Source: Pseudomonadota bacterium (GTDB lineage Bacteria; Pseudomonadota; Alphaproteobacteria; Dongiales; Dongiaceae). From it: 64,000 nt of DNA. Shown one piece after another: positions 5,627 to 59,460 of this stretch. The notes beneath the pieces were generated by a model. The model made no database searches, was not told the origin of the DNA, and was given only the letters and a program-made list of their open reading frames with translations. Numbering within the stretch: position 1 is the first letter of the stretch; each line of letters starts with the position of its first letter. Made by a program: the position numbers and the translations under genes. The stretch is taken from positions 1 to 64,000 of the forward strand of contig JAJYUT010000004.1 in the NCBI GenBank assembly GCA_021792365.1, read 5' to 3'.

Positions 5627-6168
5627 GCTCCGAGGAGCCCCTTGGGATCGAGGACCAGCGTTTCGGCCTTGGCGCCCGCGCTCTCCTCAACGTCGTTGGC
5701 GGCGGCGACATCACGCGCGGTGAAGCTTACCTTGGTCTTTGATGACATCTTCCTCTTCCTCTTGGCTCTACGCCCCAGTCCATTTGACCGACCGGCGTCG
5801 GACCTCCCGCAAGGCATCTGCCAGTGGCTCTTGCTTACGCATTAAGACAGCGTCTCGCTCTGCGGAACACCCACCTTGTGGCTGCACTCGGGCAGCACAC
5901 GTCAGCGCATGCATGCCGGGGAGCAGGCGCAAGTTGGAGCTCGGATTCTCTGGCTGGCTCATCTTCTCTTTCCACTCGATCTCCGCCTCTTCCATAGCGG
6001 GGGCCGGCTCGGTGCCGAGAAGGGCATAGCCCATCCAGGGGAATCACGAGCGAACATTCCGACATGATCGGAGCAAGGCGTCATTCACTCGCCGCTTTGT
6101 AGCTGCAGCGGACAAAGGCGTGAACTTGGTGAAAATGCTAGGCCGGGATTGACCGATGAGCGATGCAT

Positions 6169-6177
6169 TTACTGTAA
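6169..6177 (+). promoter_or_regulatory. TTACNGTAA palindrome upstream of DUF3302-A
   Basis: TTACTGTAA, extended by CGTACGTCC. It lies 89 bp before the ATG at 6267 and is conserved in copy B at 35274. Confidence 0.75.
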
Positions 6178-6266
6178 CGTACGTCCAAATCAATCCGGGA
6201 TATCAGCACGCTTGAGCCTGTCGCATGCCCGACGTAGCTTTCCGCCAAAGGGCAGGAGGGGTGACC

Positions 6267-6602
6267 ATGTTCCTTGACTATCTCGCACTGGTGATGCTGA
6301 TTATCGGTATATCGCTGGTCATTTACACCTTTATCTATATCCACGATATCCCGTACCAGATCGCCAAGAAGCGCGATCACGAACAGAAGGAAGCCATACA
6401 CCTCGCCTGCTGGCTTAGCCTCTTCACCCTTCACGCCATCTGGCCGATCGTCTTCATCTGGGCTGTCATGAAGCCGAAGCCTCTGGCGGTGAAGATCGAA
6501 GAGGATGAGCGCGGGCTGATCAATCAGCGAATCCTCGCGCTCGAGGCGCAGATCGCCGAGATCAAGACGGCATTGCCACCGGACCAGAAAGAGATCACCT
6601 GA
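6267..6602 (+). CDS. DUF3302 inner-membrane protein (YibI-like), copy A
   Basis: A 111-residue membrane protein. It has an N-terminal transmembrane helix (LALVMLIIGISLVIYTFIYI), the family motif HDIPYQIAKKRDHEQKEAIH, a second helix around LSLFTLHAIWPIVFIWAV, and a charged C-terminal helix. It matches the DUF3302 family, whose E. coli member YibI is encoded next to the HlyD-like YibH. The same pairing occurs here, with a 1-nt overlap (TGATG) to the next gene. The start ATG at 6267 has a strong AGGAGGGG Shine-Dalgarno. Earlier in-frame starts would extend over the conserved upstream region. The gene is intact, but its partner is truncated. Confidence 0.88.
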   Translation: MFLDYLALVMLIIGISLVIYTFIYIHDIPYQIAKKRDHEQKEAIHLACWLSLFTLHAIWPIVFIWAVMKPKPLAVKIEEDERGLINQRILALEAQIAEIKTALPPDQKEIT

Positions 6603-7240
6603 TGGTCGAGCTCATCATAGGCACCTACGGCCTGATTTGCTGGCTGGTTTTCAAAAAGCTCCGGCTGATCCCGGTCAACGCCTACACCGTGTGCACGGCG
6701 ATCATGATCGGGATCGCGATGCTAGGCGTGCTTGGCGTATTGCTGCTCAAGTATCAGCCGGCGTCTTCCGACGGCCGGCTCTATACGGTCACCACGCCGA
6801 TTGTGCCGCAAGTCAGCGGACAAGTCATCGCCGTGCCGGTGGCGTCCAATGTGCCGCTGCCCGAAGGTGACGTGCTGTTTCAGATCGATCCAGCTCCCTA
6901 CGAATACGAGGTCAATCGGCTGGAGGCGAAGCTCGCGGCCGCCAATACCAGCCTGAGCAGCTCGAAAGAAAGGCTGACAGCTGCGCAAGCAGCCACGGCC
7001 CAGGCGAAGGCGGACGTGGCAGCCTCCGAATCCGCCTATGATCGCCAGGCGCAGCAGCAGCGCGATCAGGCGGCAGTCGGGGTCGCACAGGTCTCTGCTC
7101 AGCTCTCGTTGGCGCGCAAGGACTATGTCCGCTACAAGGAATTGGTCGAGACGGGGACCATCCCGCGGCAGAAGTTCGAGCAGGTCTCGGAGCAGGTCGA
7201 GCGGCTCGAAGCGCAGCTGCGGTAATCCCAATCGGCTCTG
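6602..7240 (+). pseudogene. HlyD-family membrane-fusion protein, truncated copy A
   Basis: The first 207 codons encode the N-terminal membrane anchor, the biotinyl-lipoyl-like segment (VPQVSGQVIAVPV) and most of the coiled-coil hairpin of a YibH/EmrA-type adaptor. Reading stops at TAA 7223-7225, where copy B has CAA. Homology to B ends at 7240. From 7241 the sequence resumes just upstream of DUF2950. Compared with B about 2.2 kb is missing, including the rest of this gene and all of DUF3300. The product would lack the second lipoyl half and the beta-barrel and could not form an adaptor. Confidence 0.88.
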
Positions 7241-7281
7241 AGATGTGACGTGTCCGCCCTTCGAGAGTAAGAGGTGAGCAA

Positions 7282-8225
7282 ATGGCAGAGCTGTGCAGGT
7301 ATTTGTCAGCAACTAAGTTGGCCAACCTGGAGATTGTTGCCTTCGCCGCGGCGATGCTAGTGGCGAACCCCTTGCAGAACGCGTGCGCTGCTTCGGAGCA
7401 AGCAATGTTTGATCGGCCGGAGATGGCGGTCGATGCGCTGCTGGACAGCCTGAAAAATGGCGATGTGGATGGTCTTGCCAAGCTCTTCGGGCAGGAGCAG
7501 TGGGATCAGCTAGTTGGCCCGGACAAGAGCCAGGCGCGTGAAGGCCTGCTGCGCATCCATGAGGCCGGTTAGGTGTCCAGGACGGTGGTGAACCGTGGAG
7601 ATGGATACAAGGTCTTGATCATAGGACCAGAAGGCTGGCCGTTTCCGATCCCACTCGTGGCTGACAAGGGGCAGTGGCGGTTCGATACCGAGGCCGGCAT
7701 CGAGGAAGTTTTCAACCGCCGCATTGGGCAGAACGAATTGACCGCGATTGCGATCATGCGCGAATACGTCGAGGCACAGGTAAGATATGCCAGCCTCGAC
7801 CGCGACGGAGATGAGGTTCGGGAATATGCCCAGCGCATTGCGAGCACGGCGGGCAAGAAGGACGGCCTGCATTGGGCCAGTGCCGGCGGCGACGAAAGCC
7901 CGCTTGGACCGTTCGTCAGCGAGTCAGCAAGCTATCTGCAGGGTCGCGAAGCTGGCGATCCGCTTCGCGGCTACTACTTCAAGATGTGACCCGGCAGGGC
8001 GAAAGCGCCCCTGGCGGTCGCTACGACTATGTCATCAACGGCAACATGATTGGCGGCTTCGCGATGATCGCCTATCCAGCCGAGTATGGGAACTCCGGAC
8101 TCATGAGCTTCATCGTCAATCAACAGGGCGTCGTCTATGAGCGCGACCTTGGCGAGGAAACCGCCGTCGCTGCCCAGTCGATAGCAGAGTACGACCCTTA
8201 CGGGTGGTCAGAATCCGAAGATTGA
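7282..8225 (+). pseudogene. DUF2950 exported protein, decayed copy A
   Basis: It is homologous along its length to the intact 314-residue gene at 38578-39522, with signal peptide, Ala/Glu-rich region and GYYFRILTRQG-type core. There are two lesions. One is an in-frame TAG at 7570-7572, where B encodes a codon within the AAQAS segment. The other is a 1-nt deletion near 7985 that gives a TGA and moves the rest (RQGESAPGGRYDYVINGN) to another frame. The AGAGGTGAGC ribosome binding region is conserved. Confidence 0.88.
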
Positions 8226-8230
8226 TCGCC

Positions 8231-9594
8231 ATGGCATTCGAGGCATGGACGCGGCGGGCGCTGCTCCCGGCGGGTTTTCTTGCGCTTCTGGCAGGCACGG
8301 CCCAGGCGACAACTTTGAATGAGGCACTGGCCGCTGCCTATGAAGGAAATCCGACGCTGGACGCCAGGCGAGCGGAGCTGCGTGCCGTGGATGAGGGCGT
8401 TCCGCAGGCCCTCTCGGGATGGCGTCCGATCATCGAAGGCCGAGCCCAGGGCGGCCACGAGTGGGACAATATCAAATGAGCCCATCTCCCGCGACCGGGA
8501 ATTCTGGCCGCGTTCATATGGAGTGGCCATCTGCTAGCCGGTCTTCGAGGGGTTCGGCACCGTGGCCGCCACGGCGCAAGCGGAGAACCTGGTGCAGGCC
8601 GGTCGTTTCCGCCCCCTCGATACGGCACAGTTCATGCTACTGGATGCGGTCACAGCATACATGGCTGCGGTCCGTGACGAGGCGGTGCTCCAGCTCAACA
8701 TCAACAACGAGAAAGTCCTGGCCGCGCAGCTCGAGGCCACGCAGGACCGATTCGACGCCGGAGAATTGACGCGGACAGACGTTGCGCAGTCAGAAGCGCG
8801 GCTGCAGGGCGCGACCGCAAGCAGGATCCAGGCAGAGGGCCAGCTGACGGCATCGCGTGCGGTCTACCGGCAGGTAATCGAGGAACCGGCCAATGTCGAC
8901 ATGCCGGACACCGCTCTCGAACTGCCGGCCAGCCGCGACGAGGCAGTCGCATTGTCGGAGAATGCGCCGGTTGTACGTGCGGCGGAGTTTGAGGAGCGCG
9001 CGGCGAAGGATGATATAGACGTGCAATTCAGCGATCTGCTGCCTACCGTCGCGATCGAAAGCGCCTATGAGCGCCAAGAAGATCTCGGATTGGAGGATCG
9101 CGAGGCGGATGTCGGCTCCATCATCGGCCAAGTCATCATACCACTCTATCAGGCTGGCGAGCCGGATTCCCGTGTGCGGCAATCGAAGCAGCGCTACATG
9201 CAGTTCAGGCGACTCACCAGCGGAGCGCGGCGTGCAGCAGAGCGGGAATCAGTCACCGCGTGGTAAGTGCTGGAAACGGCCATCGCTCAGACACAGTCTT
9301 TCGCCGAGCAAGTCCGCGCGAACGAGCTGGCGCTCGAAGGGGTGCGGGGGGAGGAGGAGGTCGGCGCCAGGACCATCTTGAACGTCCTGGATGCGGAGCA
9401 AGAGACACTGAACTCGCGCGTCAGCTTGGTTGCATCCGAAACCCGACAGGGTGGTCGCAAGCTATCGGCTGTTGGCAGCGATCGGCGCACTGACGGCGGC
9501 CAATCTGAAACTGGATGTCGAACATTACGACCCGTCCGGGTACTATCGCGCGGTTCGGAACAAGTTCATCGGCACTGGGCCGAGCATCGAATAG
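8231..9594 (+). pseudogene. TolC-family outer-membrane efflux protein, decayed copy A
   Basis: It is collinear with the intact gene at 39528-40892. The signal peptide (LLPAGFLALLAGTAQA) and the repeats of the TolC barrel/coiled-coil fold are recognisable. Lesions seen against copy B are a 1-nt insertion near 8470 leading to TGA, CAG-to-TAG at 8535-8537, CAG-to-TAA at 9264-9266, and an extra C near 9443. Four independent lesions make sequencing error an unlikely explanation. The gene is dead in copy A. Confidence 0.92.
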
Positions 9595-9663
9595 GTTCCG
9601 AAGAATCTCCGTGCTTTGACCTTCGGCGCCTGCGTCGCAAGACCTGCTTGCTCAACGTTCGAG

Positions 9664-11214
9664 CTAGAGTTGGTCCTCAATTGGCAGCAGGCCCATGACA
9701 TCAGCAACGAACCGCCGCCACATGCTGGTTCCCGGGTCTGTATCGAATTGCACATTCAAGCCGTTCATCTCCGTCGTCCACAGCAGCTCACTGCTCTCGT
9801 CAAGCGTGACGTGAAAGGCACTGGCGGGAGTGACTCCCTCGTCCATAATCGCTCCTAACTGGCCGGCAATCTCGGGGCTATCGATCATGACGCCGACCTC
9901 GGTGTTAAAGGCCGTCGACCGCGGGTCGAGGTTGAAGCTGCCGATGAACACCGACTCACGGTCGAACACGAGAGCCTTGGCGTGCAAAGCCGCGCGCGAC
10001 TTGCCCGCCAGTACCGACCACTCCCGCTTCATGTCGATGTCGGGCCGCAGCTCGTAGAGCTCAATGCCTGCCTTGAGCAGCTTCTTGCGGGTATTGGCGT
10101 AACCGGCATGCGCAGCCACCACATCATTGGTGGCTGCGGAATTTGTCAGGATGCGGACATTCACGCCGCGAGAGGTTAGTTGTCGCATCTCATCGAGACC
10201 CCGCGCGCGAAGAATTAGATAGGGCGATTCGATCAACAACTCGCGCTCGGTCTCGCGTACCCGAAGGAGCAGCGCTTCAGCGACGAGCGTGCCGCTGGCT
10301 TCGGTGTTCACGCGGGAGGGGTCCTCAACAAGCGCATGGCCTGACGCCCAGACGAACGCATCACGGATCTGAACCAAGCGTGCGCTGAGGCCAGCCATTT
10401 GCTCGTCGATAGGATAGGGATAGCCGGCATCAGAAATCCTCTCGGAGAGTCGTTTGCTGCGAGCCATGAAATCCCGTTCGGTCGCACGCTTGTCCACCAC
10501 CGCACCTACTGGAATCGCCCACTGGCTGTTCCAGAACATGTCGAAGCTGGCGGACAAGTCCTTGACGACCGGCCCTGCCATCGCGACATCAAGATCGCGA
10601 AAGTTATGATCGGGCCGCACATCAAAATATGTATCTCCAATGTTGCGTCCGCCGACAACTCCCACAGCATTATCCACGACGAAAAGCTTGTTGTGCATGC
10701 GATGGTTAACGCGGCCAAAGTCTGTCAAGAAGCTCCAAGTGCGCCAACGCCGGTTCGCGACGGGGTTGAAGAAACGAACCTCAATGTTGGGATGGGCGTC
10801 GAGCGCCGCCACACCGAGGTCTCTCTCCTCCGTCTGATAGTGGTCGTCGACCAATAGACGCACGCGCACGCCGCGGTTGGCGGCGCGTATCAGTCGCTCA
10901 GCGAGAATCCGGCCCGTGGTGTCGGCCTCCCAGATGTAGTACTGTGCATCCAAGGTCATTTCGGCTAGGTCAGCCATGGCCAGACGGGCCATGGACGCGC
11001 GACTGGCCTCGCGCAGCAGGGCAAACCCGGATTGACCTGGATGTTGGTCCACGGCTTTCTGAAACAGCGCGCCGACCGTGGTCGTCTCGGGCTGCGCCAA
11101 GGCCAAGGAAGGGGAACGCGGGTAGGCCCAATTGACAGTGGTTCCGCAACCACCCAGCAACATGGCCACTCCGAGTGTCGCGATCAGCCTTTTGAACGAG
11201 CTTGTGGTACTCAT
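9664..11214 (-). CDS. phospholipase D / cardiolipin synthase-like lipoprotein (ClsC-like)
   Basis: A 516-residue PLD-superfamily enzyme with a lipoprotein signal (lipobox LLGGC, Cys23). It has two HKD motifs: HNKLFVVDNAVGVVGGRN in the first half and HAKALVFDRESVFIGSFN in the second, both followed by conserved Asn/Asp-Arg segments. This layout matches the ClsC/YmdC type, which transfers phosphatidyl groups to make cardiolipin. A phospholipase D role is the alternative. The start at ATG 11214 is chosen because it begins directly before the signal peptide. The longer frame from 11268 only adds unrelated residues. The gene is intact, points against its neighbours, and has no counterpart at this place in copy B, so it was gained in A or lost from B. 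Confidence 0.85.
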   Translation of the reverse strand: MSTTSSFKRLIATLGVAMLLGGCGTTVNWAYPRSPSLALAQPETTTVGALFQKAVDQHPGQSGFALLREASRASMARLAMADLAEMTLDAQYYIWEADTTGRILAERLIRAANRGVRVRLLVDDHYQTEERDLGVAALDAHPNIEVRFFNPVANRRWRTWSFLTDFGRVNHRMHNKLFVVDNAVGVVGGRNIGDTYFDVRPDHNFRDLDVAMAGPVVKDLSASFDMFWNSQWAIPVGAVVDKRATERDFMARSKRLSERISDAGYPYPIDEQMAGLSARLVQIRDAFVWASGHALVEDPSRVNTEASGTLVAEALLLRVRETERELLIESPYLILRARGLDEMRQLTSRGVNVRILTNSAATNDVVAAHAGYANTRKKLLKAGIELYELRPDIDMKREWSVLAGKSRAALHAKALVFDRESVFIGSFNLDPRSTAFNTEVGVMIDSPEIAGQLGAIMDEGVTPASAFHVTLDESSELLWTTEMNGLNVQFDTDPGTSMWRRFVADVMGLLPIEDQL

Positions 11215-11542
11215 TACTTGCCGTGCACCGGGAAAGGGTCTGTCCTCACCTGACTGCCTTGGTCGCAAGTAGAGCTAGACGATGCTATTTTGCCCTGAGA
11301 TTTATCACCCTGCGTCCATCGAAGCCCCTCCTACTGAACTCAACGAGCGCGGCTCCGGAAGAAGAGCAGAAATTTTCCCTCAAAGAGCTTCGCCGGCCAT
11401 TAATGTTTTGGTTCGAACCGCAGCAGCGGCGGATGAGAACGTGGCCGCGCGGCAAGGCCCGAGCGGAGCAGACGGGACCGCGCCGATGGTCACCGGTCGA
11501 ACCAAATGGACGATGGGCGAAGTCCGCGATCGACGTCGTATT
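11215..11542. other. intergenic region between PLD and porin A
   Basis: About 330 bp with no recognised gene. It holds the promoter of the leftward phospholipase gene and ends at the TTACAGTAA site preceding the porin chimera. Confidence 0.5.
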
Positions 11543-11551
11543 TTACAGTAA
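11543..11551 (+). promoter_or_regulatory. TTACNGTAA palindrome upstream of porin A
   Basis: TTACAGTAA followed by CGTGCTACGA. It lies 118 bp before the porin start, and the same extended site precedes porin B at 40941. Confidence 0.75.
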
Positions 11552-11669
11552 CGTGCTACGACCTAACCATTCTATCAGATAGCACTCAGAAGATAGTGCC
11601 CAGCGAAGTGCAGGTGCCGCGCTGCAGTGCGCGAGATGATGATGTGGCAATCGGGCGTGCAGGGGTGTC

Positions 11670-12752
11670 ATGTCGAAAAGCTGGCTGATGGCGACAACAG
11701 CGATCGTCACCGCCGGTCTGGCGGTGGACCCCGCCTCGGCGGCCGACGGGATCAAGCTCGGGATTGGCGGTTTCTTTAGCGCCGCTTATATGGCCGTAAT
11801 AGATGATGATGAGGAGGGTGAACTCGGCAATGAGCGCAACACCGACGGTTTCTTCCAAAGCGCTGAGATCTTCTTCGAAGGCAGCACGAGACTCGACAAC
11901 GGCGTGACGGTCGGCGCGCGTGTCGAGCTGGAAGGCGAGACGGACGAGGATCAGATTGATGAGGCTTGGGTCTTCTTTTCCGGCAAGTTCGGGGAGGCAA
12001 GAATCGGTTCGATCGACGATGCGCTGGCCTATTCGTGTATCCTTCCGCCTGGCTCGACCGGCAATTTTTCGGCCTTCTCGCCCGACCAGTGGGCAGCCAA
12101 TACGCTGATTTCCAATCCGGCGTGCGTCGGCGTGGATGAGTCGAACGGCGGCGACGCGCAGAAGCTACTGTACTTCTCCCCGGTGTTTGCCGGGTTTCAG
12201 CTTGCCTTGTCCTACACACCGAACGGTGGCGATCAAACCCACGTGGATGGCGTCGGGCCGCATGTCGGCATGCCGTTCAACAGCGACGACGAGTCAAGGC
12301 ACAATTTCTCCACCTACCTGACCTACACATACCAGGGCGAGGGCTGGGGCCTGACCTGGGGCGGTGGCGGCTCCTGGGAAGGTCACGTCGAGCGATCACC
12401 AGGCCCCAATCGCGACAAGCAAGATTTCTATCAGACCGGGCTCAGCTTGACCTTCGGCAACTTCGCGGTCGGACGTGTCTTCGAATATTACAACGACGCG
12501 CTGGATCGTAGCGGCGAGGAGGGTCACGTCGGTGACGCCGTGGCGCTCGATGCCTGGGTAGCGGGTGCCGGAATCGCCCATACAATGGATGCCTGGGTGT
12601 TTGGCGCCCAGTACTCCGACCTCGACGCGGACAACGATGACGACGCAGCGCTCGTCACCGACTTCACGCAGGACCGCGCGATGCTAACCGCCACCTATGC
12701 GCTAGTGTCTTTGGTCAGCAAGGAGTTCAGCGGGCTGACATGGCATGGCTGA
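11670..12752 (+). pseudogene. porin truncated and fused to the arcC 3' end (copy A)
   Basis: An open frame of 360 codons. The first 345 or so match the intact porin B (signal peptide ending SAADG, acidic DDDEEGELGNERNTDG loop, beta-strands). After TATYAL the frame enters SLVSKEFSGLTWHG, which matches the last residues of carbamate kinase ArcC in copy B ([12 protein letters not shown]). A deletion of about 5.7 kb relative to B (about 42108 to 47768) therefore removed the porin C-terminus, DUF4410, arcD, arcA, arcB and most of arcC. The last porin strands and the C-terminal Phe needed for outer-membrane assembly are missing, so function is doubtful although the frame is open. Confidence 0.9.
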
Positions 12753-12791
12753 CCGGGAGCGGGAGTCAAGTCGGGGAAGAGGGGCGTTGTA

Positions 12792-14255
12792 GTGTCGAGC
12801 GATCATATAACGCAGAGCGGCAAGCGGGAGCCCCGCAAACCGTGCTTGCTGGATGCGCTGATTCCCACGATTGCGCTGATCGGATTGCTGTCGCTCTCAT
12901 ACATTTTTTTTGGCGACGCGGCGTCTGCGGGGCCCAATCAGGTCGCTCTCTTGTTCTGTAGCATCATCGCCGCAGGGATTGCCTACAAGAATGGGATGGC
13001 TTGGGATGGAATCCGCCAGGCGGCAGTCGACGGCATCGCAAGCGGCTTGGCTGCCATCATGATCCTGCTCGCGGTCGGCGCCCTGATCGGAACCTGGGCG
13101 CTCAGCGGCACCATCGTTGCCATGGTGTATTACGGACTGCAGATCCTCAGCCCGAACTATTTCTACGCGTCCACCGCCCTGATCTGCGCCGTCATCGGCA
13201 TCAGCATTGGCAGTTCGTGGACGGTCGCTGGCACAATCGGGATCGGGTTGATGGGCGTGGCGGCCAGCATGAACCTATCGCCCGAGATTACGGCAGGTGC
13301 GGTCATCTCAGGTGCCTATTTCGGCGACAAGGCTTCGCCGCTGTCGGACACGGCGAATCTCGCGACCGCGACGGCCGGCTCCGGCATCTACGAACACATC
13401 CGCGAAACCCTGTTCACATCAGTTCCCGCTCTGCTCATCGCCGTTCTGATTTTCAGCGCTCTTGGCGCCCCTAGTGATTTCGACGCCTCGGCGATGCTGT
13501 CCGGGCTGGATCGCAGCTTCAACGTCTCGCTGTGGGCGTTCGTGCCGCTCCTGATCGTCCTTGGCCTGTCGATCGCCAGGTTCCCACCTTTCGTCACCAT
13601 CTTCATCGGTGCGTTCGCCGGTGGAGTGATGGCGGTGCTCCTCGATCCTTCGCGCGTGATCGCGTTCGCGGCAGATCCGGAGCTATGGGCTCCGCTCGCC
13701 GCGACTAAGGGCCTCTGGATGGCGCTGGCTAACGGCTATGTCGCAAGCAGCGGCAACGAGGCAATCGATATGATCCTGACCCGCGGCGGCATGTCGAGCA
13801 TGATGAACACCGTATGGCTCATCATTGCGGCGCTCGCGTTCGGTGCGACCGTGGAGCATGCCGGGCTGTTGAACCGGCTCGTCGACCCGCTCATTCACGG
13901 AGTGAGGTCGATCGGTGCGCTGGTGACCTCCGTCGTGGCGACCTGCATCGGCGCAAATATCGTGACCTCGGACCAGTACATTGCCATCGTGCTGCCGGCA
14001 CGCCTATTTCGGCCGGAGTTTCTGAAGCGTGGCCTGGCGCCGGTGTTGCTGTCGCGTGTCGTCGGCGATTCCGCCACAGTGACCTCGCCCCTCATTCCAT
14101 GGAACAGCTGCGGCGCCTATATGGCGGCGGCACTAGGTGTTCCGGCAACCGCTTTTGCACTCTACTCCTTCTTTAACTTGCTGAACCCGCTTCTCACGAT
14201 CCTATTCGTCGTGCTAGGTTTTCGTGTTCTGCGGCCGACCATGGTTCGTCCGTGA
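12792..14255 (+). CDS. NhaC-family antiporter
   Basis: A 487-residue inner-membrane protein with about 11-12 hydrophobic segments. It matches the NhaC family, including the conserved GAYFGDKASPLSDTANLATA segment and a second SRVVGDSATVTSPLIPWNSC segment. Family members exchange Na+ for H+, and some related transporters exchange amino acids. It starts with GTG at 12792, preceded by GGGGAAGAGGGGCG. It lies only 40 bp after the arcC remnant, so in the ancestral arrangement it may have belonged to the arginine-deiminase operon. An arginine/ornithine exchange role is conceivable but is inference. No copy exists in block B. Confidence 0.85.
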   Translation: MSSDHITQSGKREPRKPCLLDALIPTIALIGLLSLSYIFFGDAASAGPNQVALLFCSIIAAGIAYKNGMAWDGIRQAAVDGIASGLAAIMILLAVGALIGTWALSGTIVAMVYYGLQILSPNYFYASTALICAVIGISIGSSWTVAGTIGIGLMGVAASMNLSPEITAGAVISGAYFGDKASPLSDTANLATATAGSGIYEHIRETLFTSVPALLIAVLIFSALGAPSDFDASAMLSGLDRSFNVSLWAFVPLLIVLGLSIARFPPFVTIFIGAFAGGVMAVLLDPSRVIAFAADPELWAPLAATKGLWMALANGYVASSGNEAIDMILTRGGMSSMMNTVWLIIAALAFGATVEHAGLLNRLVDPLIHGVRSIGALVTSVVATCIGANIVTSDQYIAIVLPARLFRPEFLKRGLAPVLLSRVVGDSATVTSPLIPWNSCGAYMAAALGVPATAFALYSFFNLLNPLLTILFVVLGFRVLRPTMVRP

Positions 14256-14381
14256 AGATCTCGCGCGTGGTCTGATCTCGCCGATCATGACGACTGGACC
14301 GATGCGATTTGCCAGAAGAATCAAGGCGCGCACCTACACATTATCTTGCTGTTTCCGTCCGATTCAGCGGGAGTGTCACGT

Positions 14382-15170: not shown

Positions 15171-15208
15171 GCTAATTGCGGGCGCGGCCGCGCAGCAGAG
15201 GTAGCGGC

Positions 15209-16990: not shown

Positions 16991-17164
16991 CGGATCTGCC
17001 CCCTTGAGCGCTCTCGACGGACCGTACCCCGGCCGTATGGTCGCAGACAGAATGGTCTACAGTACTCGTCTGAGCTCCAACTGGGCAAATCAAAAAGCAA
17101 ACAGAGGGGCAGGGAGTGGGTTTACCGAACCTCATTCACGTACTTTGACAACCTGTCCGTTTTG

Positions 17165-46871: not shown

Positions 46872-46874
46872 GTG

Positions 46875-48848: not shown

Positions 48849-48866
48849 CCTGAGGGAAGGACTGTC

Positions 48867-49424: not shown

Positions 49425-49434
49425 GAGGTCTGCG

Positions 49435-51169: not shown

Positions 51170-51193
51170 CCGTAGATTTCGAGGAGAACGACT

Positions 51194-51628: not shown

Positions 51629-51980
51629 AGCGAGAGGATCGATCGCGCCAGGTTGTCGGGACGTGGCGAAGTTTCAAAGGCGACGACCGCGGCTTCGGCG
51701 CTGGCGAAGATCATGCCCGCGCCAATGCGCGCTGTCAGGCCTGATTGTTCGATGACGCACCGGGCGCGGCTGTTCAAGTCGGCAATACCGGATATGCGAT
51801 CGCGGAAGGCAGCGAAACAGCCGCGACCGAGAGCCCGGCGGCCGTGTCGGATTTCAGCCAGTCTTGTCTATATGCAACGAGCTGACCCGCAAGAGGCAGC
51901 CGCATCCAGTTGCGCCTGACGTGAAAGGGTGACTTGCCCGCATGGTTCGTTGCTGGCGGCATGAAGTTCTCCGCGCCCAA
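51625..51980 (-). pseudogene. SulP-family permease remnant (N- and C-termini joined)
   Basis: The minus strand encodes a typical SulP N-terminus (WMRLPLAGQLVAYRQDWLKS and AAGLSVAAVSLPSAIAYP). It then shifts frame directly into a STAS-domain C-terminus (GLTARIGAGMIFASAEAAVV), ending at TAG 51627-51625. All membrane helices in between are missing. The stop overlaps the palindromic CTAG at the end of the preceding gene. It is not present in copy A. Confidence 0.72.
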
Positions 51981-52068: not shown

Positions 52069-52077
52069 TTACAGTAA
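52069..52077 (+). promoter_or_regulatory. TTACNGTAA site upstream of PPK2-B
   Basis: TTACAGTAA followed by CGTGCCTCC, 93 bp before the PPK2 ATG. Confidence 0.75.
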
Positions 52078-52170
52078 CGTGCCTCCTCTTCTGCCTCTCC
52101 CCGATGCATATTGCATTGTTGGTCGCTGTGTCTCCGGCACAGAGACGGCACGGGGTAAGGCAAACGAGAA

Positions 52171-53014
52171 ATGCGACATTCCAATGCCAATGCGGCGAAA
52201 GTCGGCAAAGCCGGGCGACAACACGCGCCATCGGAGCTTGAGGAGAAGCTCACGCGCAAGGACTACGAAGCGGAGCTTGCAAAGCTGCATGTCGAGGTCG
52301 TGAAGCTCCAGGAATGGGTCAAGAGTGCTGGTGCAAAGATCTGCACCCTGTTCGAGGGGCGGGACGGCGCCGGCAAGGGCGGCACGATCAAGGCGATCAC
52401 CGAGCGGGTGAGCCCGCGGGTCTTCCGGGTCGTCGCGCTGCCGGCACCGACGGAGCGCGAGAAATCGCAAATGTACGTGCAGCGTTACCTGCCATACCTG
52501 CCGGGGGCGGGGAGGTCGTGATCTTCGACCGCAGCTGGTACAACCGCGCTGGCGTCGAGCGCGTCATGAGTTTCTGCACGGAGGAGCAGGCGCGCAAGTT
52601 CCTGCAGGTGGTCCCGGCGGTGGAGAAGGCGATCATCAAGTCCGGCGTAATCCTTATCGAGTATTGGCTCGAAGTCAGCCAGGACGAGCAGACCCGACGG
52701 CTGAAGGCCCGACTTCAGGATGGCCCAAGAGCTGGAAACTTTCACCCATGAACCTGAAGTTGTACAGCCGATGGTACGACTACTCGCGGGCGCGGGACGA
52801 GATGATCAAGGCCACCGACACAGCATGGGTGCGGTGGTACGTGGCGCAGTCCGACGACAAGAAGCGGGCACGTCTCAATATCATCACGCACATGCTGAAC
52901 CTTATCTCGTACAAAGAGCTGCCGCGCGAGAAGGTGAAGCTGCCGAAGCGGCAAAAGCCGGGCGGCTACCGCGAGCCGAACTACCAGTTCAAGCAGGTGC
53001 CGCTGACCTACTAG
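52171..53014 (+). pseudogene. ppk2: PPK2 family protein, frameshifted copy B
   Basis: The whole length aligns with the intact PPK2 in copy A. One base is missing near 52510 (after YLPGAG), so the Walker B part (VVIFDRSWYNRAGVE) is in another frame. A second base is missing near 52728, moving the rest (WKLSPMNLKLYSRWYDYS to QVPLTY) again. Both lesions fall in runs of G or C, so sequencing error is possible, but two in one gene make decay more likely. Confidence 0.88.
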
Positions 53015-53104
53015 GCTGGCTCGGCCAGCCGGTGACGCAATTGTTAGTCTGAATCGTCGATGGCGAAGATGTAAGAAGATTGATATATGGAGGGAGGGGG
53101 ATCG

Positions 53105-54121
53105 ATGTTGACAGCGCATTCCCTCACGGATCTGTCGGACTCCAGCAGCTCGACTGTTGAGGAAGTACAATCCTATGTGCACGAGCTACTCGGGCGCGAG
53201 GGATTCAGCGCCTCGGAACGCAACCGGCGCTTCCTGTCGTACGTTGTGCAAGAGACGCTGGAGGGCAGGGCCGATCGCATCAAAGCCTACAACATCGCAC
53301 TCGCGGTCTTCGATCGCACGGAGGACTTCGACCCTTTGATCGATCCAATCGTGCGCATCGATGCGGGCCGGCGGCGCCGCTCTCTTGAACATTATTATCT
53401 GACGACGGGACAGGCCGATCGGATTCGGATCGACATCCCGAAGGGTTCCTATGCTGCGACCTTCTCTTATCAAAAGGAGGCGGCCGGCACGCCACCGGCA
53501 CCAATTTCCAGCGAGGTTGCAGTTTCGCTGCCACGACCTCCGTCGGTCGCCTCCTGCAACCTGATCAGGCTTGCCGCGGCTATGGCAGTTTTCGGCATGG
53601 ATGTTGGCAGTCTTACAACCTATAGCATTGCGAACCACGCGAACCAAGCTGCGCTTGGATTCATCGAGAATAGCCGGCCATCACTCCTCATTGTTCCGTT
53701 CGAGGATACCGGTGGGAATCCAAGCCATGCCTTCGTAGCCCGTGGCCTCACCTATGATGTGGGGATGGCGTTGACTCAGCTGGGCGACGTCGCGGTCTTC
53801 GGACCTGGTCCTGCGCTCGACAAGTTTGCGTCGGGCTCTGAGTTCACTGGCGACTTCACCCTCATGCGCTCCGTCCAAACCGATCGGCACAGGATGCGTG
53901 TCGCTGTTTTCCTGGTGGATTCCCGCACGAGGCAGTTTCTGCGGTCTTGGAGCTTTCAGAAGGATCTCATCACCGACGACATCATCAACACGCAAGCGGA
54001 AGTGGCGCAGCAGATCCTCGCGTCGCTGCGAGAGGAATACGCACATGAATCCATGAAGCGCACGATAGCACCTGCCGAAGGCGCGTTCGCCTGTCGGCAG
54101 GTCGCGATGGCCGCCAAGTAG
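53105..54121 (+). CDS. short TolB-like membrane regulator, copy B
   Basis: A 338-residue protein equivalent to 18999-20003. It has an N-terminal domain with RNRRFLSYVVQETLEGRADR, DPIVRIDAGRRRRSLEHYY and PKGSYAATF, a membrane segment (RLAAAMAVFGMDVGSLTTYS) in which an Asp interrupts the helix, and a TolB/FlgO-like domain (LLIVPFEDTGGNPSHAFVARG). It starts at ATG 53105 after GGAGGGAGGGGG. The frame is open, so both copies remain potentially active. It is presumably co-transcribed with the broken PPK2. Confidence 0.77.
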   Translation: MLTAHSLTDLSDSSSSTVEEVQSYVHELLGREGFSASERNRRFLSYVVQETLEGRADRIKAYNIALAVFDRTEDFDPLIDPIVRIDAGRRRRSLEHYYLTTGQADRIRIDIPKGSYAATFSYQKEAAGTPPAPISSEVAVSLPRPPSVASCNLIRLAAAMAVFGMDVGSLTTYSIANHANQAALGFIENSRPSLLIVPFEDTGGNPSHAFVARGLTYDVGMALTQLGDVAVFGPGPALDKFASGSEFTGDFTLMRSVQTDRHRMRVAVFLVDSRTRQFLRSWSFQKDLITDDIINTQAEVAQQILASLREEYAHESMKRTIAPAEGAFACRQVAMAAK

Positions 54122-54199: not shown

Positions 54200-54270
54200 G
54201 GGCCTGTCCGTGGTCGAGCCGAGGTCAGTCGTGACGGAATGCCGCCAAGGCACCTGTCCACAGGCGGGCC
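54200..54270 (+). other. conserved leader upstream of Mpo1-like gene, copy B
   Basis: Strongly conserved with 20081-20152, including the GACGGAATGCCGCCAAGGCA segment. The closing stem is altered (CAGGCGGGCCC in place of CAGGCCC). Confidence 0.35.
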
Positions 54271-54292
54271 CTACACTTGGTGCGGGCGAACC

Positions 54293-54646
54293 ATGAGCGT
54301 ATCGGATCGAATACAGACGGGGCGCGAGATGTCCTTCGCCGAGTTTTGGCGGCACTACTTGCGCACCCACAGAAAGCCTGGCACGCACGCCGCTCACTAC
54401 TTGGCGACGATGGTCGGGATCGCGTCGGCTGTCGCGGCCGCGTACTATGGCCAGCCTGTCCTGGTCATCGTCGGCATCGGAAGCGCCGTCGCGTTGGCTG
54501 TCGGCTCGCACTGGATCATCGAGCGCAACCAGCCTTTGATCCGGGTGAATGCGCTCTATGGCGCGATCGCCGACCTTTGGATGTGCTGGCTTGCCCCGAC
54601 TGGCTGGTTGAAGGGCGAATATCGCCGGCTCAGGTTGATGGATTGA
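54293..54646 (+). CDS. Mpo1-like (DUF962/YGL010w family) membrane protein
   Basis: A 117-residue membrane protein. It has an N-terminal motif FAEFWRHYLRTHRKPGTHAAHY, two hydrophobic helices (GIASAVAAAYYGQPVLVIVG, then SAVALAVGSHWIIERNQP) with the conserved HWIIERN, and a C-terminal LYGAIADLWMCWL. This matches the Mpo1-like family, a fungal member of which is a 2-hydroxy fatty acid dioxygenase. The bacterial role is unknown. Start is ATG 54293. It is three bases before the DUF4105 start, so the two are coupled. Copy A keeps only a fragment. Confidence 0.82.
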   Translation: MSVSDRIQTGREMSFAEFWRHYLRTHRKPGTHAAHYLATMVGIASAVAAAYYGQPVLVIVGIGSAVALAVGSHWIIERNQPLIRVNALYGAIADLWMCWLAPTGWLKGEYRRLRLMD

Positions 54647-54649
54647 GCG

Positions 54650-55663
54650 GTGTTCCGACGCAGGTCTGCTGCACGCAGGATTGCCGGTCTAGCCTCCGCT
54701 GCCATGCTCTGGCTGATCGTGGCGGCGTTGACGGTCTGGGCTGCAGCTGCTCTCTTCTATGATCTTCCCTTTGGCAAGGCGAACCTGATCGGCGTTTTCA
54801 TCTACATCGCCGTCGTTGCGGCGATTATTGCGGTGGCTCCGGGCCGTCAATTCAAGGCGCTGGCGTGTTCTGCGTCCTTCGCCGCGGTGCTGCTCTGGTG
54901 GCTCATGATCGATCCGTCCAGTGACCGATTCTGGCAGGAAGACGTCGCGAAGACCGCCTGGGCGGAAGTCAGCGGCGATCGGGTAACGGTGCATAACGTC
55001 CGCAATTTCGACTATCAGACGGAACACGACTACACGCCGCGATGGGAGACGCGCAGCTACGATCTCCGCGATCTGCGCGGCGGAGATCTCTTCATCACCC
55101 ATTGGGGCTCGCCCTGGATCGCCCATCCGATCGTGAGCTTCCAGTTCGGTGACAAGGAGCACCTTGCCTTTTCGGTCGAAACCCGGAAGGAGGTGGGAGA
55201 GGAATATTTGGCGATCCGTGGCTTCTTCCGGCAGTATGAGCTCATATATGTCGCGGGCGACGAACGCGATCTCGTCCGCCTTCGATCGAACCATCGCACG
55301 GGCGAGGAAGTCTATCTCTATCGGACGCGCACGACGCCGGCGGCCGCGAGGGCGATCTTCCTCGACTACTTGCGCAGCGTTAATGAGCTGCATGCGACAC
55401 CGGTCTTCTACAACGCATTGACCAGCAACTGCACCACCAACATCCGAATCCACGTGCAGTCGGGTTCAGCCCTTGCACCGTGGGATTGGCGCCTGCTGCT
55501 GAACGGCAAGAGTGACGAATATGCCTATGAGCACGGGCGTCTGGCCGGCGATCTGCCTTTCGAGCAACTGAAGGAGAAGGCCCATATCAACGACGTGGCG
55601 CGATCCGTCGGGACGGCGGAGGACTTCTCCGCTCTCATTCGGCTTGGCCGCCCCGGCTTTTGA
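54650..55663 (+). CDS. DUF4105 membrane protein
   Basis: A 337-residue protein. Two to three N-terminal transmembrane helices are followed by a periplasmic DUF4105-type domain: WAEVSGDRVTVHNVRNFDYQ, DLRDLRGGDLFITHWGSPWI, FSVETRKEVGEEY, and the conserved Cys-containing ALTSNCTTNIRIH. The Asn-Cys motif suggests a papain-like hydrolase fold, which is inference. It starts at GTG 54650, three bases after the Mpo1-like stop. Its 3' end overlaps the opposing AI-2E gene by about 29 bases. Confidence 0.85.
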   Translation: MFRRRSAARRIAGLASAAMLWLIVAALTVWAAAALFYDLPFGKANLIGVFIYIAVVAAIIAVAPGRQFKALACSASFAAVLLWWLMIDPSSDRFWQEDVAKTAWAEVSGDRVTVHNVRNFDYQTEHDYTPRWETRSYDLRDLRGGDLFITHWGSPWIAHPIVSFQFGDKEHLAFSVETRKEVGEEYLAIRGFFRQYELIYVAGDERDLVRLRSNHRTGEEVYLYRTRTTPAAARAIFLDYLRSVNELHATPVFYNALTSNCTTNIRIHVQSGSALAPWDWRLLLNGKSDEYAYEHGRLAGDLPFEQLKEKAHINDVARSVGTAEDFSALIRLGRPGF

Positions 55664-56782
55664 GCCGAGCGGATGCTGGTGTGACATCGCTGGCGTCATC
55701 CGCCTCGGCCACCCACGCCACGAGCAGGGTGTAGCCGACGGCGCGGCCAGTCGGCCCGAGAAAGATGCCGATCAGGCCGAACGCGATCAGGCCGCCGACC
55801 ACCCCGACCAGGATGAGCAGCAGCGGCAGGTCGACGCCCTTCCGGATGAGAAGGGGGCGAAGCACGTTATCGGCGGCGATCGCGATGACGCTGCACACAA
55901 GCAGGAAGGTCGCGGATGCGGTGCCTCCGTTCGCAAACATCCAGAACACCGCCGGGACGAGCACTAGGCCGGGGCCGAGCTGCGCAATGGAAAGCATGAA
56001 CATGATCGCGCACAGAATGGGCGCGTAGGGAACGCCCGCCACTAGCAGGGCTGTCGACCCGATCGCTGCCTGGATGAAAGCCGTGATGACCACGCCGAGC
56101 GCGACGCCGCGGATCGCCTGGCCCGCCAGCAGAACGGCCTGCTGTCCCCGCGCTCCGGCGAAGCGTTTTCCGAACCGGACCAGAGCCGCTGCGGCGCGCT
56201 CACCCCGGGCATACATGATCGCGGCGACCACCACCGTCAGCAGGAACTGCAGCAAGACCATGCCGAAATCCCCGACCGCGCCGATGAACCATTGCGTGAT
56301 CGTGCCGGCGTAGGGCCTGGCCTGCTGCAATGCTTCCCGACCGCCGGTTTCCTCAAGTCTCTGCCAGGCCCGAACGGCGCGTGCGCCGATGATCGGGATC
56401 TCGCCCAGCCAGGTGGGAGGCGTCGGAAATTGTATCGAAGCGACGGCTGCCACCCAGCGCAAGGTCTGATCCGAGTTGGCGAGGATCGTGCCGATGGCAA
56501 GCCAGAAGGGAACAACGAACAGGAACAGCAGGACACCCGTCATCACGGTGGCGGCGAGACCGCGGCTTCCCCACAGCCGCGCCTCGACCCACCGCATGAG
56601 CGGCCAAGTCGCAATGACCAAGGTGGAGCCCAGACGATTGCGGGTAGAAACGGCCCGAGGATCCACAGGCAGATGACGATCAAGCCCGCGATGAAGAAGA
56701 TTACAAGCGTGGAACGGCCGAGATCGCTGTGCAAGTCGTACCTTACGTTCAGTCGTTGGAGTCCAGACTCGCGCCTCGTCAT
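55635..56782 (-). pseudogene. AI-2E-family permease, frameshifted copy B
   Basis: Nearly the full family sequence is present. The C-terminal 330 or so codons, from ATWPLMRWVEARLWGSRGLA to the stop, are in one frame, including ITAFIQAAIGSTALLVAGVP and the PLLIRKGVDLPLL motif. The first 60 codons or so (LGRSTLVIFFIAGLIVICLW up to FLPAIVWA) are in another. A single missing base near 56625 explains it, as the copy A sequence is one base longer there. It may be a sequencing error. If real, both copies are defective. Confidence 0.8.
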
Positions 56783-56811
56783 TCGAACATTCCAGGGAGA
56801 ATGCGAGCACG

Positions 56812-56820
56812 TTACGGTAA
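56812..56820 (-). promoter_or_regulatory. TTACNGTAA site between AI-2E-B and EF-hand-B
   Basis: Minus-strand reading TTACCGTAACGTGCTC, oriented toward the AI-2E gene. It is 89 bp before the EF-hand ATG. It matches the site at 21208. Confidence 0.74.
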
Positions 56821-56908
56821 GCTACAATCCCGGCGCCCAAATTTCGCAGCGGCCCAATCGCCATCAGCGCAGCGCCGTGCTATGCCTCTCGGCATGGTGA
56901 GGGTGACT

Positions 56909-57304
56909 ATGACCTGTGCACGTAAAGCTGCCCTGCTGCTGTCCGTCGGCATCGGATTGGCCGCTGCAGGCGCGCCGGCGTTGACGAATGATGACGTGCG
57001 GCTCAGACGCTTTTTCTCGGTGATCGATCTGGATGGGAGCCAGGAAATCTCTCGGTCGGAGTTCCGATCCGGCAAGAGCGTCGTCTTCCTCAACCTTGAC
57101 CTAAACGGCAACATGACCCTCGAGCCGGACGAGATGCGGATGTCGCCGGACGGCTTCAAGCTTCTGGCTGGGGAGGACGGCGTGGTCGACGGCGAAGAGT
57201 TCATCGGGTCGGAGATTGGCTCGTTTGACGCAGTTGATAGGAACAAAGATGACCAGATCGACTACTCGGAGCTCAGCGAGTACATAGCAAAATACTCGGG
57301 CTGA
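56909..57304 (+). CDS. exported EF-hand protein, copy B
   Basis: A 131-residue protein with a signal peptide (ALLLSVGIGLAAAGAPAL) and EF-hand loops DLDGSQEISRSE, DLNGNMTLEPDE and DRNKDDQIDYSE, all with good oxygen ligands. It is a probable periplasmic Ca2+-binding protein. The ATG at 56909 follows GAGGGTGACT and matches the copy A start. In-frame codons back to 56729 overlap the divergent promoter and are not part of the protein. It is intact in both copies. Confidence 0.82.
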   Translation: MTCARKAALLLSVGIGLAAAGAPALTNDDVRLRRFFSVIDLDGSQEISRSEFRSGKSVVFLNLDLNGNMTLEPDEMRMSPDGFKLLAGEDGVVDGEEFIGSEIGSFDAVDRNKDDQIDYSELSEYIAKYSG

Positions 57305-57358
57305 TTCTGTCTGTGCTTCTACGTGGGGGAACACCGGATAAGGCACCTTTGAGGCTTG

Positions 57359-58010
57359 ATGGGCGCATTGGCTGCCAGTTTCCTGACGGTCTTTTGTTGG
57401 ACTCTTCCCGATCGTGAATCCGCTCGGGATGGCGCCGATCTTCCTTCGCCTGACCTCCGATGCGACGGAACGGACCCGGGCGAAGCTGGCCTGGCAGATT
57501 GCCACCGGCGGGTTCGTGCTGATGGCGGTGTCGTTGTTCATCGGATCTCATATCCTTGCCTTTTTCGGACTCACCATTACGGCGGTGCAGATTGCCGGCG
57601 GCCTCGTGGTGATGACCGCGGGCTGGCGCATGCTGCAGCAGGGGAACGACGCGCGCGTCAGGGAGCAGCAATCAACGGCGCCAGAGGACTCGATCATGCG
57701 CCGCGCGTTCTTTCCCCTTACGATGCCGTTGACGGTCGGACCGGGCACGATCTCGGTTGCAGTCACCCTGGGAACGCGCGGCGCCGAGACCAAACGGCTG
57801 CTCATGACTGCCGCTGGCGGCCTGCTTGCCGCGCTGGCGGTGGCAGCAACGATCTATCTGAGCTACCGGTTCGCGACCACTGTGCTGCGCTGGCTGGGGG
57901 AAACCGGCACGGACATCTTCATGCGTCTCTCGGCCTTCATTCTGCTTTGCCTTGGCGTGCAGATCGTAACCAATGGTATCGCCACGCTGCCGTTCATTGG
58001 CAGGTACTGA
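57359..58010 (+). pseudogene. MarC-family membrane protein, frameshifted copy B
   Basis: The start MGALAASFLTVF is in one frame. One extra base near 57393 (CTTTTGTTGG compared with GTTCGTTGG in copy A) shifts it. The rest, NPLGMAPIFLRLTSDATERT to the stop, is open in the correct alternative frame from 57414. It is a single lesion, so a sequencing error cannot be excluded. Copy A is intact. Confidence 0.82.
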
Positions 58011-58052
58011 GCCACTGGGTAAAGTCCGGTTCGGAGGTGTATGGTAATTCAG

Positions 58053-59460
58053 TTAGTGTCGCTCTTCGCCGTGGATGGCAGTCCCGCCTTGGTGAGCCCG
58101 ATCTACGATCGCACGCACAATAGTTGGGTCGGTGTTTCGCTTGCGGAAATCCGCCTCTATATGCTGGCCATAGTTTGGGTCAAACTTCAAGATCTCCAAG
58201 ACGGCTGTCTTTGCATTCTCACTATCCCCCAATTGCGCATATGTCATCGCGCGAAAGACATAGTCATAGATGTTCAGAGGCGTTTCGGCAGCCGTCATCT
58301 CCGCTAATGCCGATTTGTAGTCGGCATGCATGTAGGCATAGAGGAATCTCCCACGACGATAACCGGCTGGCGCTCTGGGATTAAGTGCGAATAGCTTGTC
58401 GAGCAGCGCTTTGCTCTCCTCCCAGCGGGCAAGCAATGCATAGCGTATTCCGAGCTCAGCAATCAGAATTGTATTGTTTGGGTTCAGTGCCAGCCCTTGC
58501 TTCGCGGCCTCCAAGCCGCCTTCCACGTCATGGGCGAACCAGCGAGCAACGGACAATGCCAGATAGCCCTCGCTCGCCAACGGTTCAAGTTTGATTGCCG
58601 TATCGGCTAACTCCAGCGCTCGCTGCACAGGGTCGAACGTCAGCACTTGCGTTCCGTATCCAAATCTATGCGCATCGACATACAGCGGCGCCAGGCAGGA
58701 GTAGGCGCGCGTAGGCGGGATCCGTCTTTACAGTTGTTTCCATGCAGCTAAGGAGGTCGTCGTACTGCCTGGCGTCGTAGGTGCGCCAATATTGCTGAAA
58801 ACGCACCACGCATTCGTAGGACAATAGGTCTTTTCCGGGCTTGCCCGAGATTTCGACAGAATTCCGCTCGAACACTGCCTCATACGGCTGAGCTAACGCG
58901 CGCGCGACACGATCCGCGATGTCCGTCTGCACTTGCAGGAGACTCGACGGTGTCAAGGGCGCTTCAGTGCTCCTCGACCAGACATATTCCCCTGTTCTGG
59001 TATCCGCGAGCATGGCGGAAACACGCAACGTCGTTTCGGTCGAGGAGACGGAGCCGGTCTGAGCGAAGTCTGCTTGGATGGTGAAACCTGTGGGCCGCAG
59101 TCCGCTGGACTCGCTGACAGCGAAGCTCGTTTCTTGCCCATAAACGAAAAGATCATTGAACCTGGTCAGACTGGCGATGAAGTCGTAGGTCAAGCCCCGC
59201 GCGACAAAAGCGCGGTCAGGATGCACGCTCGTGTCTTGGAACGGATGAACGACAATCTTTGGACCCCGCAATGGTCCTGCGTCCGCATCGCCTGCACTGC
59301 CGATACTCCAGATTTGCTGAACGATGAACCAAGTCCCTACAACAATGACCAGGGCAGCTGCGGCCAGCGCAAATCGTTTCTCCGTGGCGCGTGACGATCT
59401 CGGCGGGCGCGTGATCGCTGAGTGCGGTCTGATCCGAGAGGATCGCGGATGGTCAGCTGC
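58053..59460 (-). pseudogene. long TolB-like regulator, truncated copy B
   Basis: Homologous to the C-terminal two thirds of 22551-24353. The TPR part (58053-58700) and TolB-like part (58666-59290) are in different frames because two bases are missing near 58710 in a GCGCGC run. Upstream the membrane segment (ALAAAALVIVVGTWFIVQQI) is still readable, but homology stops at about 59420-59460. The N-terminal regulator-like domain and start codon are gone. This marks the right end of copy B. Confidence 0.85.

Follow-up and report, generated by a model that had tools for sequence, protein, structure and literature searches.

Contig C30 (536,186 bases) of a Dongiaceae genome begins with a 64-kb stretch, hereafter the window, that carries two related gene islands, block A and block B. 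They share gene order and orientation, and each has lost genes that the other keeps. We think it quite likely that the blocks are sister stress islands, one of them from a congeneric lineage, that their losses are complementary and recent, that they form in part one regulon, and that the surviving genes act as one set. The source genome spans 5.43 Mb in 30 contigs, with a completeness of 100 and a contamination of 1.56. Gene names follow Pfam and NCBIfam. The state of each copy was judged by stops and frameshifts in the frame of the intact copy, using alignments, outgroup proteins and read-outs of single starts.

Reciprocal decay of two collinear blocks

Self-alignment of the window resolves the blocks into eight long homologous segments and an arcC remnant of 75 bp, all collinear and in the same orientation. 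The block starts lie 29 kb apart, and 11 kb separates A from B. Sixteen genes have alignable sequence in both blocks, remnants counted, in agreement with a preliminary description of the window, which had proposed two collinear blocks with at least 14 genes in common. The 5-10% divergence given there is too low: identity is 77-86% in seven of the eight segments, a divergence of 14-23%. The eighth, of 664 bp, reaches 93% because it contains an exact tract of 383 bp.

DUF3302, the short regulator and the EF-hand protein are intact in both blocks and AI-2E is broken in both, as had been described. PPK2 and the long regulator are indeed intact only in A. The same claim for MarC is weaker, as the 198-amino-acid frame of the frameshifted B copy still spans positions 15-201 of 203 in the Pfam family, with no excess substitutions. 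Many genes listed as intact only in B turn out to be deleted outright in A, namely DUF3300, DUF4410, arcDAB, o48867, o49402, patatin and, except for an 11-base match, o51194. Edge remnants of HlyD, porin, arcC, o48381, Mpo1 and Lnb are kept in A, and the ends of AI-2E also flank a deletion. Recombination between repeats was ruled out as the route of deletion, the longest word shared by the ends being 4-6 bases at seven junctions. Overlooked at first were the NhaC-type antiporter, AspH, a third regulator (reg593) and a PLD protein, all kept by A alone, and a SulP permease lost from both blocks.

The union gene order is seen in single islands of other members of the family. In G009 (C27), DUF3302-HlyD-DUF4410-arcDABC-NhaC-o47970-patatin (broken)-o51194-regulator-Lnb run in one orientation. 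G011 (C2) has PPK2-arcDABC-NhaC-regulator (the last on the minus strand), a distant porin (minus strand, 36%) and then o47970-o48381-o48867-o51194. Both G001 (C402) and G003 (C1) have regulator-o47970-o48381-o48867-patatin-o51194, and NhaC adjoins the regulator in G001. Because NhaC follows arcC in relatives, and the arcC remnant directly precedes the antiporter in A, arcDABC was lost from A and the antiporter with reg593 from B. Judged from these alignments, deletions account for the loss of arcDABC, HlyD/DUF3300, the patatin module and Mpo1/Lnb from A, and the antiporter and third regulator are ancestral genes lost from B. The arcDABC genes of B are annotated homologues in order, with intact homologues in G009, G010 and G011 and an ArcD above the NCBIfam cut-off; among the matches listed, the source genome has no other arc match, the A remnant aside. 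SulP adjoins PPK2 in G003 and G011, and its loss is detectable only because these two keep it there and B keeps pieces of both its ends.

This gives 28 ancestral genes, a count that excludes PLD and AspH, which occur only in A. Block A lost 20 and B lost 7; only AI-2E and SulP were lost from both, against 5 expected, and 26 of the 28 survive in at least one copy. The deficit of double losses has a hypergeometric P of 0.0095, and among the 28 circular shifts, counting the true one, 2 attain the observed value. Random placement of the B loss events gives P 0.012. If MarC is scored as intact in B, the values become 0.038 by gene and 0.048 by events. The earlier suggestion that the blocks together retain one working set thus holds for 26 genes and fails for AI-2E and SulP, and the excess of complementarity is modest.

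To these losses we added a relative-rate comparison, in which copy-specific changes at codon positions 1 and 2 were counted against an outgroup in nine genes (for TolC, a paralogue from the same genome). In genes broken in A, the changes in A and B were 38/10 for TolC, 22/9 for DUF2950, 10/5 for HlyD and 31/18 for porin; in genes broken in B, they were 14/31 for PPK2 and 27/56 for reg600. HlyD and porin are singly non-significant (chi-square 1.67 and 3.45). Pooled, these six of the nine genes give a Fisher P of 1.8e-10, or 4.4e-7 without TolC, and third positions tilt the same way more weakly (3.9e-5). Excluded from the pool were MarC, DUF3302 (both copies intact; 9 changes in A, 4 in B) and the 5' part of AI-2E (both broken; 10 in A, 2 in B). 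On these substitution counts the decay is real, amino-acid-changing substitutions being in excess in most broken copies and surviving copies staying constrained. A drop in GC content at third codon positions was also tried as a mark of decay and proved inconsistent, being lower in A as expected for HlyD, TolC and DUF2950, opposite for porin and reg600, and equal for PPK2.

The ratio of nonsynonymous to synonymous divergence (dN/dS) between A and B is 0.05 for HlyD, 0.09 for DUF2950, 0.10 for TolC and 0.07 for porin. Because most of the A-B divergence still shows codon constraint, the loss of function is probably recent relative to the split of the two copies.

Sequencing error, which the preliminary description had named as a possible source of the frameshifts, is ruled out by the rest of the contig and by the relative-rate test. 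The frameshifts are unevenly spread and come with the excess changes at positions 1 and 2. Long open reading frames (ORFs; cut-off 200 amino acids) are present in most of the remaining 10-kb bins across the 480 kb examined, the bins at 180-200 kb being poor in them.

A shared box and the island regulators

The promoters of both DUF3302 genes have a 29-base stretch in common, which is the source of the pattern TTACNGTAAYGT. It has 13 matches in 5.43 Mb, 11 of them in A and B and the other two before the o47970 genes of patatin modules on C9 and C11. Reversing the pattern as a control yields 3 genome matches. Searched for with up to one mismatch, a narrower form of the box is present 11 times in the window, against 0.04 in shuffles. 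In both copies the box stands before DUF3302, porin, o47970 (with reg593 divergent), PPK2 and AI-2E, and in B also before DUF3300, which is deleted in A. The distance from box to start codon is 28-80 bases in the five cases measured, and a weaker form precedes arcD at 43021. In five A/B site pairs, selected because each copy fits the pattern, A and B disagree at 2 of 60 positions of the 12-base core, compared with 152 of 465 flanking positions.

The box is also found in relatives. In their fetched stretches, 12 of 13 matches precede an island gene (DUF3302, porin, o47970, reg593, PPK2, arcD, AI-2E or DUF3300, on either strand); the odd one, at 119026 of G003 C4, lies behind DUF2950 with no known island gene after it. 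Of 385 genomes sampled from the class, 2 contain a longer form, TTACNGTAACGTRCYTC. The two are members of the same family, yet this form extends beyond the family because the rhizobial loci L093 and L103 have it too. With a weight matrix derived from the sites, boxes were found in 13 of 20 fetched loci with a regulator homologue and in 13 of 60 without (P 0.0007). At the same threshold the matrix has 16 matches in the window; the remaining 456 kb of C30 yields 3. In six Rhizobium loci (L090, L097, L101, L102, L104, L109) its sites lie about 100 bases before the regulator match. We know of no published description of the box, and a literature text search for one form of it returned no match. 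The FNR/FixK boxes TTGAYNNNNRTCAA have no exact match in the window.

Related arrangements occur elsewhere. The order regulator-box-o47970 recurs upstream of reg600 (25324-25704 of the window), with a second o47970-like ORF (25423-25704) and a site resembling the box. More distant modules with regulator, box, o47970, o48381, o48867 and patatin lie at 260.8-267.0 kb of C9 (L233) and 213.1-220.1 kb of C11 (L234) in the source genome.

A strongly conserved N-terminal domain is common to the three regulators reg342, reg593 and reg600, which are paralogues. Only reg593 was modelled with an alignment; the full-length model has a mean predicted local distance difference test score (pLDDT) of 81.6 and a predicted template modelling score (pTM) of 0.63. 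It predicts four helices plus a beta hairpin, a long helix at 150-180, an alpha/beta domain and TPR-like helices. The N-terminal domain has no Pfam match, and the predicted winged helix comes from the full-length model only, since the isolated domain predicts poorly. Foldseek places the CadC periplasmic domain (3ly7, 3ly8, 3ly9, 3lya) at ranks 10, 13, 18 and 20, with E values of 2e-5 to 5e-5. No CadC chain is among the 50 VIA-align matches listed for reg593, and a sequence search of solved structures returned TPR proteins only. We therefore use "CadC-like" for the predicted build of reg593, as a description and not as proved membership.

The island membrane regulators are probably the candidate binders of the box. 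Because six genes carry TTACNGTAAYGT in front (seven with the weaker arcD site), much of the set may be one regulon under these regulators. A regulator of this kind works in trans; whichever copy a surviving gene belongs to, it would then remain under joint control. CadC controls the lysine decarboxylase operon under acid, and a parallel to the arginine deiminase operon here is a lead only. The gene families themselves (arginine deiminase, PPK2, NhaC-type antiporter, TolC/HlyD/porin, DUF3300-DUF2950, patatin module and MarC) suggest a role of the island in envelope or low-energy stress.

Origin of the pair and competing explanations

Synonymous divergence (dS) between A and B, over 12 segments outside the exact tract, ranges from 0.385 (PPK2) to 1.14 (porin), with a median of about 0.56. 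Core orthologues of a 20-kb stretch of C30 have a dS of 0.48-0.89 against three congeners (18 of 21 rows, three out-of-frame-looking ORFs dropped; ORFs with a match of at least 70% amino acid identity only). Since the ranges are alike, the divergence of A from B is comparable to that between species of the genus. The preliminary description had held that uniform dS would favour one duplication and mosaic dS separate acquisition or conversion; the values fall mostly inside the core-gene spread, with a high porin and one tract without difference.

If at least one copy came in from a related lineage, this would explain the long constraint, the redundancy and the lack of such a pair in congeners. 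Separate arrival, which had been suggested before, is the origin these comparisons favour over a recent duplication. A different lineage within the genus would have supplied the second copy, which lodged next to the first. Redundancy, together with a general tendency of the island to erode, would then have allowed the copies to lose different genes, and the surviving genes of A and B would now function as one set.

Several observations weigh against this account. The complementarity statistic is weak, at most suggestive, and is biased by ascertainment, because genes erased from both copies and absent from relatives are uncountable. Two genes, AI-2E and SulP, are gone from both copies. Single-copy islands erode too, with patatin broken in G009 (C27 130654-131039) and AI-2E in G001; redundancy is thus not needed for loss. 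In MarC the intact A copy has 16 changes at positions 1 and 2 and the frameshifted B copy has 8, and the MarC of B is no nearer to that of A (86.2%) than to that of the congener G001 (86.9%). Neither a donor nor a single-block strain was found among the genomes searched. Several island genes, such as NhaC, MarC and patatin, have no box of their own, and regulator and box are candidate partners without a direct tie. For reg593, the CadC TM-scores are low (0.23 by query, 0.38-0.39 by target) amid general TPR proteins, and its N-terminal domain alone, predicted without an alignment, gives a pLDDT of 48.4 and no usable model.

Some of these points fit independent erosion without complementation, in which the island decays throughout the family and the losses differ largely by chance, and which is compatible with either origin. 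The single islands of relatives that lack or break members, the two double losses, and P values of only 0.01-0.05 from a statistic tilted toward complementarity all speak for it. We regard it as a tentative alternative, since the 7 B losses overlap with the 20 A losses in only 2 genes, codon constraint persists in surviving copies and not in broken ones, and no other long arc, NhaC or PPK2 match is among the places listed for the source genome (17 candidates scored each).

An old duplication within the lineage, near the genus radiation, would have left both copies functional for long, with decay only recently. A and B are nearest relatives in six of six FastTree gene trees, with a support of 1.000 in five and 0.963 for the A+B split in the sixth (HlyD, four sequences); MarC, reg342 (three sequences each), reg600, EF-hand and DUF3302 are outside the tree set. 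These trees speak for an old duplication, as does one exchange tract, which shows that A and B recombine in the same cell. Such a duplication would need strong constraint on two redundant copies (dN/dS of 0.05-0.10 in HlyD, DUF2950 and TolC) through species-level time. No such pair shows up in the congeners: in DNA searches that scored 17 candidate places per genome, G002 and G003 (completeness 100 and 97) have scattered homologues only. We find this history rather unlikely. A tandem duplication of a larger unit was ruled out, as nothing between the end of B and 80 kb matches the sequence at 24.3-35.3 kb; up to the same limit the flanking sequences of the two blocks have no mutual match.

The exchange tract is the 383-bp identity itself. 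It begins within o47970 and stops four bases short of the A deletion scar in o48381. The second-longest exact A-B word is 62 bases, the probability of such an identity at 83% per base is near 1e-31, and the C9 and C11 relatives lack it. We read it as recent gene conversion or crossing-over, going by the alignment. An assembly could re-phase the block halves at this repeat, since the pairing of left and right halves depends on how the assembly crosses it. An artefact of mixed strains or of a misjoin there is nevertheless very improbable: a single 536-kb contig holds the two blocks, whose flanks differ, in a genome of the completeness and contamination given above, and a misjoin could re-phase halves or imply a 30.7-kb circle, yet not create two diverged copies.

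Taken together, sister islands caught while losing redundancy, and at least partly under one control system, are the most likely reading; that selection treats them as one unit is a proposal. A bolder version, which we hold to be doubtful, is that islands from different congeneric donors form one split regulon, each having lost what the other retained, with CadC-like regulators of both acting in trans on a box that is nearly absent from the rest of the genome. If so, neither island could now be lost without breaking a stress response that is otherwise complete.

Surroundings and comparison with known systems

Mobile-element genes and a tRNA-Met gene lie in the neighbourhood of the blocks (Table 1), and the contig probably starts in an rRNA operon. 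No direct repeat of at least 14 bases of the tRNA 3' end was found in 520 kb, which is not decisive for a large serine recombinase. Attachment repeats did not turn up at the block ends, where no dedicated search was made; these ends fall in promoter or coding sequence. The genes at 27158-30826 are probably a nitrate reductase run, and the stretch of molybdopterin oxidoreductase and NapC resembles 23055-26517 of G003 C4. A large MscS-type channel gene (33001-35538 of the window) is divergent from DUF3302 of B, and an MscS homologue also lies near the G011 island. Outside the blocks, the source genome has a third DUF3302-HlyD pair (C28 793008-794647; HlyD 77% amino acid identity) and another TolC (C21 493664-494959; about 70%). 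HlyD had no match at 1e-60 in 384 other genomes sampled from the class; a draw of that size lacks G009, whose HlyD is 89% alike.

Table 1. Positions in the window of the blocks, their genes, boxes and neighbouring features.
Feature	Position	Strand	Remarks
Block A	6159-24353	+	decayed copy; alignment to B stops at 23916 within reg600 (blastn self-alignment)
Block B	35264-59410	+	fuller copy; right end truncated within long regulator (blastn self-alignment)
Exchange tract, A	17425-17807	+	383 bp identical to B 48146-48528
Exchange tract, B	48146-48528	+	383 bp identical to A 17425-17807
DUF3302, A	6225-6602	+	intact; Pfam PF11742
HlyD 5' half, A	6602-7240	+	truncated; counterpart of B interval 36345-38538 deleted
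DUF2950, A	7281-8228	+	in-frame stop and frameshift
TolC-like, A	8203-9594	+	stops and frameshifts
PLD-domain protein	9664-11268	-	A only
Porin, A	11620-12703	+	3' end gone at deletion; 5' frame disturbed
arcC 3'-end remnant, A (75 bp)	12711-12785	+	scar of DUF4410-arcDABC deletion; 79% to B 47772-47843
NhaC-type antiporter	12792-14255	+	A only; 363.6 bits against NCBIfam NhaC cut-off of 370
Aspartyl/asparaginyl hydroxylase-like (AspH)	14346-15170	+	A only
reg593 regulator	15209-16990	-	A only; modelled with CadC-like build
PPK2, A	18004-18909	+	intact; Pfam PF03976
Short regulator reg342, A	18975-20003	+	intact
AI-2E family, A	20406-21262	-	376-bp internal deletion and frameshifts
EF-hand protein, A	21263-21691	+	intact
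MarC, A	21764-22414	+	intact
reg600 long regulator, A	22551-24353	-	intact
DUF3302, B	35248-35706	+	intact
HlyD, B	35706-37007	+	intact
DUF3300, B	37118-38533	+	intact
DUF2950, B	38578-39522	+	intact
TolC-like, B	39501-40892	+	intact
Porin, B	41024-42247	+	intact
DUF4410, B	42283-42993	+	
arcD-arcA-arcB-arcC (arginine deiminase pathway), B	43110-47813	+	
o47970, B	47970-48239	+	A copy has two 1-nt deletions
Exported pair o48381/o48867, o49402, patatin, o51194	48381-51628	+	B only
Glycine-zipper protein o49402	49402-49926	+	B only
Patatin	49886-51169	+	B only
SulP permease remnants (both ends)	51652-51902	-	gene lost in A and B
PPK2, B	52108-53020	+	frameshifted
Short regulator, B	53087-54121	+	intact
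Mpo1-like and Lnb-type proteins, B	54239-55663	+	only ends remain in A
AI-2E family, B	55635-56864	-	N-terminal frameshift near 56627
EF-hand protein, B	56840-57304	+	intact
MarC, B	57370-58010	+	frameshift at about codon 11
reg600, B	58048-59410	-	broken; 5' end missing
Box before DUF3302, A	6169-6180	+	
Box before porin, A	11543-11554	+	
Box between reg593 and o47970, A	17165-17176	+	
Box before PPK2, A	17965-17976	+	
Box before AI-2E, A	21205-21216	-	
Box before DUF3302, B	35274-35285	+	
Box before DUF3300, B	37027-37038	-	strand opposite to gene
Box before porin, B	40941-40952	+	
Box before o47970, B	47885-47896	+	
Box before PPK2, B	52069-52080	+	
Box before AI-2E, B	56809-56820	-	
tRNA-Met	50-126		near contig start
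Large serine recombinase gene	83-1744		opposite strand to tRNA-Met; reading frame terminates inside tRNA
Molybdopterin oxidoreductase	27158-29662		between A and B
NapC-type cytochrome	30128-30826		between A and B
DUF772 transposase	31352-32434		between blocks
IS110-family transposases (two)	60815-62035, 62429-63670		after B

Redundant islands are usually seen just after arrival or once one copy is gone. The pair described here appears to be caught midway, with outgroup islands showing the ancestral content and substitution patterns dating the losses as recent. The shared box could explain why genes of either copy remain useful, and the pair makes it testable whether regulation in trans welds two incomplete acquisitions into a functional whole. 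The box is also a candidate operator for a widespread, little-studied group in Alphaproteobacteria, that of DUF3300, DUF2950 and the TPR-type membrane regulators.

CadC and ToxR, with which the regulators invite comparison, are one-component membrane regulators; reg593, the one regulator with a model, is predicted to resemble them in an N-terminal DNA-binding domain, one membrane helix and a CadC-like sensor build, and differs in its low TM-score, an N-terminal domain without a Pfam match and the presence of several paralogues in the islands. In Hodgkinia, complementary losses have led to partial genomes that work jointly as one, in separate cells and genomes of a symbiont, whereas here the copies share one chromosome of a 5.43-Mb bacterial genome. 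Lineage splitting in this cicada symbiont is the subject of PMC10287537. Reciprocal gene loss after whole-genome duplication, as reported for instance from Paramecium (PMC10195154), is alike in that redundant copies lose different genes. Here, a common ancestral gene set is recovered and the broken copy is the relaxed one in six genes broken in one copy, MarC excepted; the copies, however, are two islands on one bacterial chromosome and probably do not stem from genome duplication.

Genomic islands are described as accreting at tRNA genes (PMC8978831, PMC5704250). The blocks resemble these in their relatedness to each other and in lying close to a tRNA, beside which there is a site-specific recombinase gene. 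They differ in being homologous islands with interleaved losses and in the attachment repeat, which was not found, the block ends not having been specifically searched. In root-nodule bacteria, DUF3300 lies directly upstream of DUF2950, both with signal peptides and listed there as of unknown function, and in that account their gene neighbourhood gave no hints (PMC4653623). In the window, by contrast, the pair sits in a larger island with a box.

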